Shown piece after piece: positions 9,105 through 37,436 of a stretch of 55,287 bases of DNA. This DNA is from an uncultured Pseudomonadota bacterium. Its GTDB lineage: Bacteria; Myxococcota_A; UBA796; SXON01. The first letter of the stretch is position 1; each line of letters opens with the position of its first letter. The notes under the pieces are model-generated. The model did not search any database, was not told where the DNA came from, and saw only the letters and a list, made by a program, of their open reading frames with translations. The translations under genes were made by a program, and so were the position numbers. The stretch covers positions 1 to 55,287 of the forward strand of contig CAIXRH010000173.1 in the NCBI GenBank assembly GCA_903921785.1, written 5' to 3'.

Positions 9105-9153
9105 GCCCCCCACCCGCGGAGGCGTCGCCCTGCCTCCCCCAGATCGACGCCCC

Positions 9154-9469
9154 CGCGGGTGGGCTTCCTCTCTTCGCCGCTCGCCCGGCGAGGACGCGGC
9201 GCCCGGGGGGCGGGATTCACGACGTCGCGAATCCAGCTCTTGCGCCCTCGGCAGCAGGGCTCGTCGGCGCTGGGTCCTGCCGCCACCATCGACGGGCGGT
9301 CGCTGCGCTCCGCCCGCCGCTGGCGACGTCACCCGCCCGGTCATCTCACCCTGAACCGTCGGCGAACAAGGACAAGGATGCCCCCGACGTCGGGAAGCCC
9401 GCCTGGGCTTGCTGCACGGTCTCGCTTTGGGTCGCTGCGACTCGCGGGTGGGCTTCCCCTCTTCGCCGC
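9154..9469 (-). repeat. dispersed element R, copy 1, with flanking direct repeats
   Basis: The 367-bp gap between genes here is mostly one repeat. Read on the minus strand it matches 35572-35826. Exact shared blocks are 9349-9377 (29 bp, equals 35625-35653), 9267-9286 (20 bp, equals 35717-35736) and 9177-9201 (25 bp, equals 35801-35825), with nearly equal spacing (62 and 65 bp against 63 and 64 bp). The copy is bracketed by a 27-bp direct repeat, 9154-9180 and 9443-9469, with one mismatch. The last shared block folds into CTCGC/GCGAG. I see no credible open frame common to both copies. Confidence 0.75.
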
Positions 9470-9471
9470 GC

Positions 9472-10491
9472 TCAACCTTCCCAGCGTTTCCACCGGTCGT
9501 CTGGCGCGTAGTCCGTGAAGAACGGGTGGTCGTCCACCGCGGCGCGCTCGCGACAGTGCGTGAGCCAGATCCCGTAGTGGGACGGGTGGGCTTGGAGCCA
9601 CGGCTCGATGGCTTCCGTGAGCACCCGCGCGCGGAGCGCCTCGGCGTCGCCGCCGACGATGGGCGGGCCGAAGCGGCAGCGGTTCGGTTCGCCCTCCGGG
9701 CACTCGCAGAACACCGGGACGAGCGCCGCGCCGGTGCTGGCCGCGAGCCGGAACGGCCCGGGGTTCAACAGCGCCGTGCGCCCCAGGTACGGCACCTTCG
9801 CCCACCGCTGGCCGATCCGCCCGTCGAACGCGATGCCCACCAGCTCGTTGCGGGCGAGGCAGCGGTAGAGCTCGCGGACGGACGTGTCGAGCGAGATGAA
9901 GGTGATCGGCAGGCGGTCCTCGTTCGCTTCGCGGGCGGCGCGCGCTTCGCGGCGCCACTTGTTGTTGGCGAAGACGTCGGCGTGGGCGCGGGCGACCTCG
10001 GGCGGCGCCATCCCGCGGGCGGCGTACTGCGTGTAGCGGTACCCCATGAGCCCCATCACCGCGTGCATCAACATGAAGTTGCCGGCGTGGGGGAAGACCA
10101 GGATCGCCCCCTTTTTCCGGGCGAGCGCCGCGTCGAGGTGGTCCTGGCGCTCCACCGTCATCCAGCGCTGCCAGTTCGTGGGCGTGAGCTTGCCGAGGAG
10201 GAGCTCTTCGAGGTGTACGCGGAACGCGATGCGGTACGCATCGGCGACCACCGCCTCGTCCACGGGGCCCAGCCAACGCCGATACTCGTCCATCATCAGC
10301 GCGCGCTGGTGGCCGGCGAGGGCGTATTGCGCGCGCCAGAGCGGGTAGAGACGAGCGAGGCGCTCGGGCTGCTCCGGCTCCATCGCGTCGCGGAGCTTCA
10401 CCCAGAACAGCCACCGCGCCATGTCCTTCGGCGAACCCCGCAGATCGCGGAGGCCGACGGACTCGGGCAGGGCCTCGTTGGGGGGCGCCAT
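9472..10491 (-). CDS. LpxL/HtrB-like acyltransferase with altered catalytic motif
   Basis: The 339 residues resemble lipid A lauroyl/myristoyl acyltransferases: an amphipathic N-terminal half, the block ILVFPHAGNF, and later LVGIAFDGRIG, PYLGR and LAASTGAALVPVF. LpxL enzymes transfer an acyl chain from ACP to Kdo2-lipid IVA at the inner membrane. Their motif is HX4(D/E), as in HFGNWE. Here His135 is followed by AGNFM, so the acidic residue is Met140. Either this is a divergent enzyme using another acid, or it acts on another acceptor. There is no obvious membrane anchor at the N-terminus. Substrate is an inference. Confidence 0.75.
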   Translation of the reverse strand: MAPPNEALPESVGLRDLRGSPKDMARWLFWVKLRDAMEPEQPERLARLYPLWRAQYALAGHQRALMMDEYRRWLGPVDEAVVADAYRIAFRVHLEELLLGKLTPTNWQRWMTVERQDHLDAALARKKGAILVFPHAGNFMLMHAVMGLMGYRYTQYAARGMAPPEVARAHADVFANNKWRREARAAREANEDRLPITFISLDTSVRELYRCLARNELVGIAFDGRIGQRWAKVPYLGRTALLNPGPFRLAASTGAALVPVFCECPEGEPNRCRFGPPIVGGDAEALRARVLTEAIEPWLQAHPSHYGIWLTHCRERAAVDDHPFFTDYAPDDRWKRWEG

Positions 10492-34782: not shown

Positions 34783-35544
34783 GTGTCAGGCCACGAGGTG
34801 GCCGTGCTCCTGGCGATCGCCGCCGCCCTCGCTGTCCCCGATCCGGTCTTCTGCTCGCCGAAGCTCGCGGTCTTGCCCGCGTTCACCCTGAGCGAGATCC
34901 CGATCGGCGTGGTCTTCGCGGCCGCGGAGACGCTCCCCGCCCCCGACTGCCGCCCGGGCGACACCCTCTCCCTCCGCGTTCACGTGGCGGACGGCGCCGC
35001 CGACCGGGTGCTCGTCACGACCCGGTTCGACGGGCGCGGCGCGCTGCTTCAGGGCGCCCCGAACCCGGCCCTCGAGCGGTTCGACACGATCACCGTTTCC
35101 GTCGCGAGCGACGGCAGCACCGAGCCGCCACCCGACCACACCTTCGTGGTCAGCGGCGAGCTCGTCGCGGCACCCGAGGGCGCCCCCGTCCTCGAATTCC
35201 TCGACGCAACCGGCGCCTTCGGCGGACCCGTCACCCTCTCCGGCCGCCTTCAGCCCGTCGAGTACCCCGCGGGGCTCTCCCTCGTCGGGCTGGAGTCCGA
35301 CGACGGGCGGCTCCTCCTCCTCGGCGACGACGCGGACTTCGAGGTGATCGACGTGGACTACGCGGACACCTGCTACGCCGCGCTCCAGGTCTTCGCGGAC
35401 GGGTCGTCCGCCCGGGGCGACGTGGTCTGCCCCGAGGTCGGGCTTCCGGCGGAGTGCGGGTGCGCGGCGGCGGGCGCGCCCGGGTCGGCCGGATTGCTGG
35501 CCGTGGCCGCGCTGCTGTCCCGGCGGCGCGTCAGCCCCCGGTGA
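34783..35544 (+). CDS. secreted protein with MYXO-CTERM-like sorting tail
   Basis: The 253-residue protein has an N-terminal hydrophobic signal (VAVLLAIAAALAV) and a beta-rich body with no known family. Its tail reads ECGCAAAGAPGSAGLLAVAALLSRRRV: a CGC-type cysteine motif, a hydrophobic helix and an Arg cluster. This is the layout of MYXO-CTERM sorting domains, which anchor proteins on the surface of Myxococcota after cleavage near the Cys. The start is GTG at 34783 or 34798. The stop codon lies inside a 33-bp direct repeat that flanks element R copy 2, so the last residues may have changed when that segment was copied. Confidence 0.68.
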   Translation: MSGHEVAVLLAIAAALAVPDPVFCSPKLAVLPAFTLSEIPIGVVFAAAETLPAPDCRPGDTLSLRVHVADGAADRVLVTTRFDGRGALLQGAPNPALERFDTITVSVASDGSTEPPPDHTFVVSGELVAAPEGAPVLEFLDATGAFGGPVTLSGRLQPVEYPAGLSLVGLESDDGRLLLLGDDADFEVIDVDYADTCYAALQVFADGSSARGDVVCPEVGLPAECGCAAAGAPGSAGLLAVAALLSRRRVSPR

Positions 35545-35874
35545 GCTCCGCGTACAACCAGGGTAACCACGCCAAGCGAGCCCGTGCAGCCAGCCAAGGC
35601 GGGCTTCCCGGCGTCGCGTGCAGACCTTGTCCTTGTTCGCCGACGGTTCAGGGCGAGGTGACGGGACGGGTGACGTCACGGGCGAACCGGCCGAGCGCAG
35701 CGAGGGCCGGGCGCTCGTGGCGGCAGGACCCAGCGCGGACGGTGGCCGTTGCCGCGGCCCCAGGGGCACGAATCGCGACGCCGGGAATCCTGCCCCCCGG
35801 CGCCGCGTCCTCGCCGGGCGAGCGGTGATCGCCGCCGTTCAGCGTCAGCCCCCGGTGAGCTCCGCGTACAACCA
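35528..35874 (+). repeat. dispersed element R, copy 2, with flanking direct repeats
   Basis: The 300-bp gap 35545-35844 holds the second copy of the element at 9154-9469, in opposite orientation; the core is about 35572-35826. An exact 33-bp direct repeat, 35528-35560 and 35842-35874, brackets it and continues imperfectly for about 13 bp. The left repeat contains the stop of the MYXO-CTERM gene and the right one the 3' end of the esterase gene. The repeats here are unrelated to those at copy 1, as expected if each was made at insertion. Confidence 0.75.
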
Positions 35875-36852
35875 CGGCAACGACCGGTCCATGCGGTAGT
35901 CGATGTCCGAGTGGTCGTCGTCGAACTCTTCGTAGGTGTGGCGCACCCCGTAGCGTTCGAGGCGTTCGCGCAGCATCCTCGCCCCGTAGAGCAGCATGTA
36001 CTGGTCCCGGGTGCCGCAATCGACGAACAGCCCGCCGGAGGGGAGGTTGTCGCTGCGGTCGTCGAGCATGCGCACCGGGTCGTGGCGGAGCCAGGCGGCC
36101 CAGCGCACGGGGTCGATCTCCCCGGTCTGCGGGTGGAACGGCAGGTGGAACCTCCCGGGTTGCTCGGGGTCGGGGTCATAGCTCGCGGCCATCCCGAGCA
36201 TCATGATCCCCATCACCTCGTCGTGAGAGAGCTTCTCCTTGGCGTGGAGGGCCTCGAGGTACCGGTTCACGTCCCCGCCGTGGGGGGCGAGCTGGCGGAG
36301 CAGGATCGGGAAGTCTCGCTGGTACACATACTCAAAGTACGCATCGCCGGAGTGGCAGACGGCAGCGGACCACACGTCCGGCCGGAGCATCCAGTGCACG
36401 ACGGAGCCGTAGCCGCCGCTGGACTTGCCGAAGAGGCCGCGGCGGCCAGTGCTCGGGAAGCGGCGCTCCACCAGGGGCACCAGCTCGTCGCAGAGCATGT
36501 CCATGTAGCGACCGATGGCCGCGGAGTTGATGTACTGGTTTCCCCCGTAGCGGGTGAAGCAGTCGGGGAGCACGACCATCACGTCGCCGACGCGCCCGCG
36601 GCTGTGCAGCCAGGCGAGCCGATCGGGGATGTTGAGCCCGAACGGCTTCCAATTCACGTGGCTGTGGCCCGAGCCGGTGTAGCCGACGAGGTCGCACATC
36701 AGCGGCAGCGGAGTGCGCCCGTCCCACCCGGGCGGGGTCCACACCAGCACCTCGCGCGAGGATGGGTCCCCCGCCGGGTTTCCCTGGAGGGTCTCGAAGT
36801 CGTGCTGGAGCCGGTGAAGGGTGCCGGCCGGCACATCCGCGGGTTTGCGCAT
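35845..36852 (-). CDS. alpha/beta-hydrolase, esterase D/enterochelin-esterase-like
   Basis: The 335 residues match the putative esterase family: WTPPGWDGRTPLPLMCDLVG at the start, VVLPDCFTRYGGNQY, and the nucleophile elbow GKSSGG with Ser144. A likely acid is in GGLFVDCGTRDQYM and the catalytic His is in EEFDDDHSD. No signal peptide is seen. The substrate is unknown; related proteins cleave siderophore esters or S-formylglutathione. The ATG at 36852 overlaps the stop of the upstream LURP-one-like gene by 1 bp (TAATG). Its last codons lie in the direct repeat that flanks element R. Confidence 0.85.
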   Translation of the reverse strand: MRKPADVPAGTLHRLQHDFETLQGNPAGDPSSREVLVWTPPGWDGRTPLPLMCDLVGYTGSGHSHVNWKPFGLNIPDRLAWLHSRGRVGDVMVVLPDCFTRYGGNQYINSAAIGRYMDMLCDELVPLVERRFPSTGRRGLFGKSSGGYGSVVHWMLRPDVWSAAVCHSGDAYFEYVYQRDFPILLRQLAPHGGDVNRYLEALHAKEKLSHDEVMGIMMLGMAASYDPDPEQPGRFHLPFHPQTGEIDPVRWAAWLRHDPVRMLDDRSDNLPSGGLFVDCGTRDQYMLLYGARMLRERLERYGVRHTYEEFDDDHSDIDYRMDRSLPWLYAELTGG

Positions 36853-37436
36853 TACTGCTGACGGCCTTCGATCGCGAGGAGCAGCACCACGAGCGCGATG
36901 CCGAGGCGGGGGTCGAGCGAGGCGTTGTTCTGCCCGTCGAAGCTCACGTCGTAGGCGAGCTGGAACGGGTTGAAGCGCTGGCGGATGGTGCCGAGGGCGT
37001 TGCCCGCCGGGTCGGCCACGGTGAAGCGCTCCGGGAGCCACTGCTTGAAGATGAAGCGGCGGAGGAGCGCCATGAACATGGAGTCCTCCTTGCAGGTGCC
37101 GAGGAGGCCGCCCGAGGCGTCCACCACCTCCCAGCTGTCCCGGAGGATGGACTTGAGGCCCTGCCGCCGGCAGGCGCCGACCGACTCCCCCGTGACGACG
37201 TCGGTCACGTCGTAGGTGGCGGACACGTCGAAGACCTGGCGGGCCTTGATGGTGAGCCGCTTCTGGGTCTGGCCTTCATCGGCGAAGACGTTGAGCTCTT
37301 CCTTGAGCTTGAACGCCTTCTGCTTGATGAAGTACTGGAGCGAGCCGTCGGTGCCGAAGATCCGGAAGGAAGCACCGAGGAAGCTGAACATTGCCTTCTT
37401 GGCAACGAAGTGGCGGGCGACGGGGAGCGTGGTCAT
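36852..37436 (-). CDS. LURP-one-related (LOR)/scramblase-like protein
   Basis: This 194-residue protein shows the Tubby-like barrel of the LOR/phospholipid-scramblase superfamily: FRIFGTDGSLQYFIKQKAFKLKEELNVF, VFDVSATYDVTD, LKSILRDSWEVVD, GTIRQRFNPFQLAYDV, and a final hydrophobic helix (RLGIALVVLLLAIE). Members bind membranes or lipids. The ATG has no Shine-Dalgarno, but TACCTT lies 6 nt upstream. It is cotranscribed with the esterase. Its true function in bacteria is not known. Confidence 0.82.
   Translation of the reverse strand: MTTLPVARHFVAKKAMFSFLGASFRIFGTDGSLQYFIKQKAFKLKEELNVFADEGQTQKRLTIKARQVFDVSATYDVTDVVTGESVGACRRQGLKSILRDSWEVVDASGGLLGTCKEDSMFMALLRRFIFKQWLPERFTVADPAGNALGTIRQRFNPFQLAYDVSFDGQNNASLDPRLGIALVVLLLAIEGRQQ

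Follow-up and report, generated by a model that had tools for sequence, protein, structure and literature searches.

Two copies of a unit of roughly 250 bp lie in the window, the whole 55,287-nucleotide stretch of DNA analysed here, and each is bracketed by a direct repeat of its own. A first, sequence-only reading took this arrangement as what an inserting element with unusually long target duplications would leave. The locus thus raises the question of what this element is, and whether long duplications are its way of inserting. We conclude that the two copies probably belong to a genus-restricted, MITE-like family of non-autonomous DNA transposons, which mostly inserts in stop codons, carries a conserved RNA-like hairpin and displays long direct repeats as a rare secondary feature.

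Two repeat-bracketed copies in the window

The two copies share three exact blocks of 29, 20 and 27 bp (Table 1), the last of which had been given as 25 bp in the sequence-only reading, and their cores are 82% identical. Copy 1 is flanked by a direct repeat of 27 nt with one mismatch, and copy 2 by an exact repeat of 33 nt, which extends to 43 nt at 93%. As had been stated, the flanking repeats of the two copies have no relation to one another, and each copy is situated at the 3' end of a gene. The neighbour of copy 1 is a lipid A acyltransferase-like gene (PF03279, positions 9472-10491, minus strand), whose stop codon is the TGA beside the copy. Copy 2 adjoins a putative esterase gene (PF00756, positions 35845-37041, minus strand), the stop codon of which is the TCA at the 3' end of the copy.

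A terminator scan of copy 1 returned one weak site only. The inverted repeat that is overlapped by the copy-1 direct repeat lies downstream of a Cdd1-like gene and is strong, its arms being 88% complementary.

Table 1. Positions of the two copies, their flanking repeats and associated features in the window
Feature	Position	Strand	Remarks
Shared block, 29 bp	9349-9377 / 35625-35653	opposite orientations	exact
Shared block, 20 bp	9267-9286 / 35717-35736	opposite orientations	exact
Shared block, 27 bp	9177-9203 / 35799-35825	opposite orientations	exact
Terminator-like inverted repeat, 24-nt arms	9109-9163	+	overlapped by copy-1 direct repeat
Element-3' copy of 27-bp direct repeat	9154-9180	-	native flank, tail of terminator-like hairpin
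Copy 1 core	9174-9427	-	both terminal inverted repeats gone; identity to copy 2, alignment A1
Structured motif, copy 1	9264-9368	-	covariance model R1, 120.9 bits, E 1.5e-23
Motif part CGGCAGGACCC, copy 1	9282-9272	-	
Motif part GGGTGACG, copy 1	9334-9327	-	
Element-5' copy of 27-bp direct repeat	9443-9469	-	in place of 5' terminal inverted repeat
TGA stop of acyltransferase gene	9472-9474	-	at expected 5' TNA target position
Element-5' copy of 33-bp direct repeat	35528-35560	+	replaces 5' terminal inverted repeat
TCA, 5' copy of 3-bp TNA target duplication (copy 2)	35531-35533	+	
Copy 2 element	35561-35844	+	5' terminal repeat replaced
Copy 2 core	35569-35837	+	diverged 3' terminal repeat reaches 35844
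Structured motif, copy 2	35634-35739	+	covariance model R1, 112.8 bits, E 1.1e-21
Motif part GGGTGACG, copy 2	35668-35675	+	
Motif part CGGCAGGACCC, copy 2	35721-35731	+	
Element-3' copy of 33-bp direct repeat	35842-35874	+	native esterase gene 3' end
TCA, 3' target-duplication copy (copy 2)	35845-35847	+	esterase stop (TGA on minus)

Copies, ends and insertion sites in the genome

The genome to which the window belongs is a draft of 7.48 Mb in 362 contigs. BLAST with copy 2 gave 75 matches in it, which after merging corresponded to about 42 near-complete copies plus fragments, and a covariance model of the core gave 61 matches. With some 42 to 61 copies genome-wide, the presence of two within 55 kb is unremarkable. 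The description as a two-copy element holds inside the window and fails for the genome, and the outcome that had been named beforehand as speaking against an inserting element, just two copies genome-wide, did not occur. That the element is dispersed and inserting was borne out by these copy numbers and by two congeners in which the orthologous site of copy 1 is without it.

Intact copies are in most cases 323-341 bp long and have imperfect terminal inverted repeats (TIRs), TACGGTYYGACCCTGAT being found at both ends in inverted orientation. The longest copies reach about 454 bp and contain internal hairpin units; all these sizes are below the room needed for a transposase gene. Intact copies are bounded by a 3-bp duplication of the form TNA, which is either TGA or TCA. 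A pattern combining TNA and TIR matched 43 times in the own genome and not once in a reversed control, and in 21 relatives it gave at most 2 matches per genome, every one with one mismatch. Identical TNA triplets were present in 18 of the 24 copies with both ends readable, a list compiled by eye, and in most copies 41 nt separated the triplet from the core. An internally deleted copy of 121 bp also had TGA on both sides. When 14 further regions were scanned for facing TIRs, no larger element was found, only short derivatives.

The hairpin unit, GGCCCGGAAGTGGGCC(A), is an insert at a constant position within the element, present once or in a short tandem array, and there are copies with 66-130 bp additional at this position. 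It is carried by L007, L015, L017, L018, L020, L026 and L029 (columns ~100-131 of alignment A1), by L021:36-90 and by L042. Tandem or nested copies meet at a TNA triplet (L043:1193-1852, L014 and L013), which suggests repeated insertion beside or into the element's own duplication.

At about 23 of 27 readable sites the triplet ends an open frame of 100 codons or more, compared with 20% of the TGA triplets in the window (enrichment p about 5e-13); the sites were curated by eye and open-frame length was used instead of annotation, an open frame in GC-rich DNA being no proof of a gene. A TGA target reads TCA when the gene is on the opposite strand. The elements nearly always land in gene stop codons, a pattern that is compatible with selection or with targeting. 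The target duplication restores the stop codon, so that the protein is left unharmed by the insertion. Relative to the gene hit, about 18 elements are in the same sense and 8 in antisense (p 0.08), with no firm bias. G009 and G006, two congeners, have a convergent Cdd1-like gene close behind the acyltransferase gene and no element in this orthologous gene pair, so that copy 1 is an insertion relative to both; as these congeners are about 26% diverged (protein level, copy-1 gene), the sequence of the empty site is not readable base by base.

The family has the short size, terminal inverted repeats and target duplication of a MITE, together with many dispersed copies and an orthologous gene pair free of the element in relatives. 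The 3-bp TNA/TWA duplication of IS5/PIF-derived MITEs is likewise present. Four families of IS5- or Harbinger-type transposases (PF01609, NF033580, PF13340 and PF13359) had no match in the own draft genome, an incomplete assembly whose 362 contigs may lose multi-copy IS, and because this search found no such transposase we do not file the element as an IS5/PIF-derived MITE. In our model an element of about 320-340 bp would be moved in trans by a putative IS5/PIF-like, TNA-duplicating transposase; it would enter a TGA stop codon, and the TNA duplication would restore the stop.

The hairpin core and its distribution in the genus

The core of the element forms a long hairpin, whose asymmetric internal loop (GGGUGACG ... 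CGGCAGGACCC) is invariant. In an alignment of 31 copies from the own genome, 97% of the cells of the predicted structure were paired, and two-sided changes were present in 49 cells, against 17.1 ± 2.9 in shuffles. The covariance model, built on the central 105 positions, detected the motif in each of the genus's 11 genomes; the 47 searched outside the genus had none. Matches per genus genome numbered 61, 32, 26, 13, 5 and 3, and then 1 in each of five genomes. Among 55 distinct sequences of the genus, two-sided changes affected 18 of 24 pairs, and the genus-wide covariation was 0.55, compared with 0.16 after shuffling and no more than 0.09 when partners were slid. On either side of the variable stem the sequence hardly varies (GGGU, GA and CG on one side, CG, GCAGG and ACCC on the other), which gives the asymmetric internal loop. 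No match to Rfam was obtained in the window, nor, with E values up to 1 allowed, in eight loci from relatives. The core hairpin is apparently an undescribed structured motif with strong covariation.

Within these helices, the genus-wide alignment contains 70 G-U versus 4 A-C cells, an excess that is somewhat inflated because fitting this alignment to the model favours G-U. In a MAFFT alignment of the own-genome copies, the pairs with a Watson-Crick majority gave 56 G-U versus 34 A-C over both folds, in the same direction and weaker, and the consensus fold was -59.9 on this strand versus -43.2 on the other. As the complement strand would reverse the excess of G-U over A-C, it points to selection on one strand, most naturally with the core acting as RNA. 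Judging from the alignments, the core would most likely function as RNA, within transcripts of 3' untranslated or intergenic regions, the hairpin being read on one strand and kept by compensatory mutation.

The families of G005, G002 and G003 were aligned as well. Those of G005 and G003 have ends that are related yet different (TACCGACTGAGCC... and TACCAACTGATCG...), and some of their copies have matched TCA or TGA triplets; TNA ends occur in several copies, which are too decayed for statistics. The architecture seems to be common to different species, with diverging termini. In G006 and G009 the sole detected copies (L105 and L106) sit at orthologous positions next to a TolC-like outer-membrane efflux gene; some insertions are thus older than the species split. 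A wide distribution beyond the genus was considered and found no support: in genome_contigs the 20-bp core block occurred in one contig of an unrelated organism, where the covariance model gave an E of about 1, the plasmids searched had no match to the family, and viral_contigs, searched with the TIR or the pattern of the motif, gave matches at chance level only.

Origin of the long direct repeats and relation to known systems

Among the 42 copies of the own genome, to which these counts apply, long unique direct repeats were found at copy 2, copy 1, L020 (17 bp) and perhaps L007 (12 bp); the remaining high flank scorers are tandem element copies. As a cross-locus control, the left flank of copy i was scored against the right flank of copy j. 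The mean of these scores was 7.8 and the 95th percentile 11, compared with 24 and 34 for window copies 1 and 2. Scores at least as high as those of copy 1 and copy 2 were reached by 1.2% and 0.3% of the cross-pairs, respectively, the upper tail being partly made of tandem copies that match one another. The control rules out a chance origin for copies 1, 2 and L020, and the 12-nt repeat of L007 is near chance in it and distinctive in register only.

In register, directly after the TNA, identity to the 3' flank runs over 27 nt in copy 2, where the triplet is TCA, over 14 nt in L020 and over 12 nt in L007, compared with matches at 1-6 of 12 positions in 21 other copies. These three copies retain the 3' terminal repeat, and their long repeat starts at the usual TNA boundary. 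Their triplet-to-core distances are 35, 40 and 19 nt, respectively, the canonical value being 41. Copy 1 has also lost the 3' inverted repeat, and its TGA-to-core segment measures 39 nt.

Long target duplications as the signature of insertion did not survive this comparison, given the identical 3-bp TNA in 18 of 24 readable copies and long repeats in only 3-4 of 42, where they replace the 5' terminal inverted repeat. As a rule for the family they were rejected on the flank analysis of the 42 copies. The most economical explanation has 3' flank sequence, copied in direct orientation, taking the place of the 5' inverted repeat, with template switching across the hairpin as the favoured route. 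This reading also fits copy 1 at its 5' end; a truncated element inserted with a 27-bp duplication would be an equally simple account of that single copy. From the junctions we infer that replication crossing the hairpin would involve slippage of the nascent strand from the left to the right TNA copy, copying of 12-30 nt of the 3' flank and then a return into the 5' arm, whereby the 5' inverted repeat would be overwritten. We favour the long direct repeats of the window copies being a rare secondary alteration and not the normal mode of insertion.

In L003, L029 and L033 the element's own 3' arm, copied in direct orientation, has taken the place of the 5' end, with a junction at GCGAGC or a variant of it, which resembles the flank overwriting in the window copies.

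The 27- and 33-bp repeats might instead be true target duplications, produced by widely staggered cuts around end-truncated elements as for IS1549 and IS1634, for which long duplications varying over 8-514 bp have been reported (PMC2266710). This would account in one step for copy 1, which is without both inverted repeats, but we consider it unlikely. It sits poorly with the prevalence of identical 3-bp duplications and with the normal TNA boundary and preserved 3' terminal repeat of copy 2, L020 and L007, and truncation predicts something other than the nearly canonical 5' segments of copies 1, 2 and L020.

Other explanations concern the hairpin. It could be a structured non-coding RNA of the host, or a 3'-end processing or terminator hairpin, duplicated many times with mobility being incidental. 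A core that covaries in all 11 genomes of the genus although termini vary among species, and five genomes with only one detected copy, would suit this proposal, which nevertheless seems to us improbable in view of the TNA duplications and inverted repeats in the own genome (less complete in G005 and G003) and of the examined single-copy loci, which vary among species, G006/G009 excepted. We give even less credence to a DNA structure, that is, a folded single strand recognised by a transposase in the style of IS200/IS605 or REP/RAYT. Strand-specific folding would favour one strand too, and REP-like elements consist of hairpins situated close to gene ends; against this stand the clear target duplications of the family, which IS200/IS605-type elements are not known to make, and the preponderance of G-U over A-C, which is natural for RNA.

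Returning to the MITE-like transposon family, we tentatively propose, with appreciable doubt, that its conserved functional part is a structured RNA, in which GA lies opposite GCAGG between the GGGU:ACCC and CG:CG helices, on a covarying stem, and which is brought to mRNA 3' ends through stop-codon insertion. If so, the element would spread a new RNA motif through host 3' untranslated regions genus-wide, and this motif might bind a protein, have a stabilising effect or serve the element's own transposition. The locus is of interest as a mobile element that enters stop codons without damage to proteins and as a structured motif that is dispersed throughout one genus, in all genomes sampled. The long-target-duplication reading was a tempting misreading, which is now corrected, and the overwritten inverted repeats offer natural junctions for studying how templates are switched at hairpins, which may be one way in which mobile elements become immobilised.

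The IS5 superfamily (IS1031 and ISL2 groups) and PIF/Harbinger elements generate a 3-bp target duplication of the TNA type. The present element has this duplication in common with them, and no known IS was matched to its terminal sequence. REP/BIME, ERIC, Correia/NEMIS, RUP and BOX sequences are dispersed intergenic hairpins near gene 3' ends; their placement is similar, and what may separate the family from them is the lack of an Rfam match. The prokaryotic MITEs QMITE2, Chunjie and MITEAba12 are small and non-coding, with TIRs, a short target duplication and a stable hairpin, and occur also as internally deleted derivatives and as truncated copies without DR and TIR (PMC10969869). The overall anatomy, the deleted derivatives and the truncated copies are the same here. 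Unlike them, the present family is GC-rich, prefers stop codons and occasionally has one inverted repeat overwritten by flank, and its core shows genus-wide conservation, an invariant internal loop and strong covariation. The likeness to IS1634 and IS1549 lies in the long, variable direct repeats at some copies; unlike in those elements, such repeats are a minority in this family and stand at the position of the 5' inverted repeat, the rule of the family being 3 bp.
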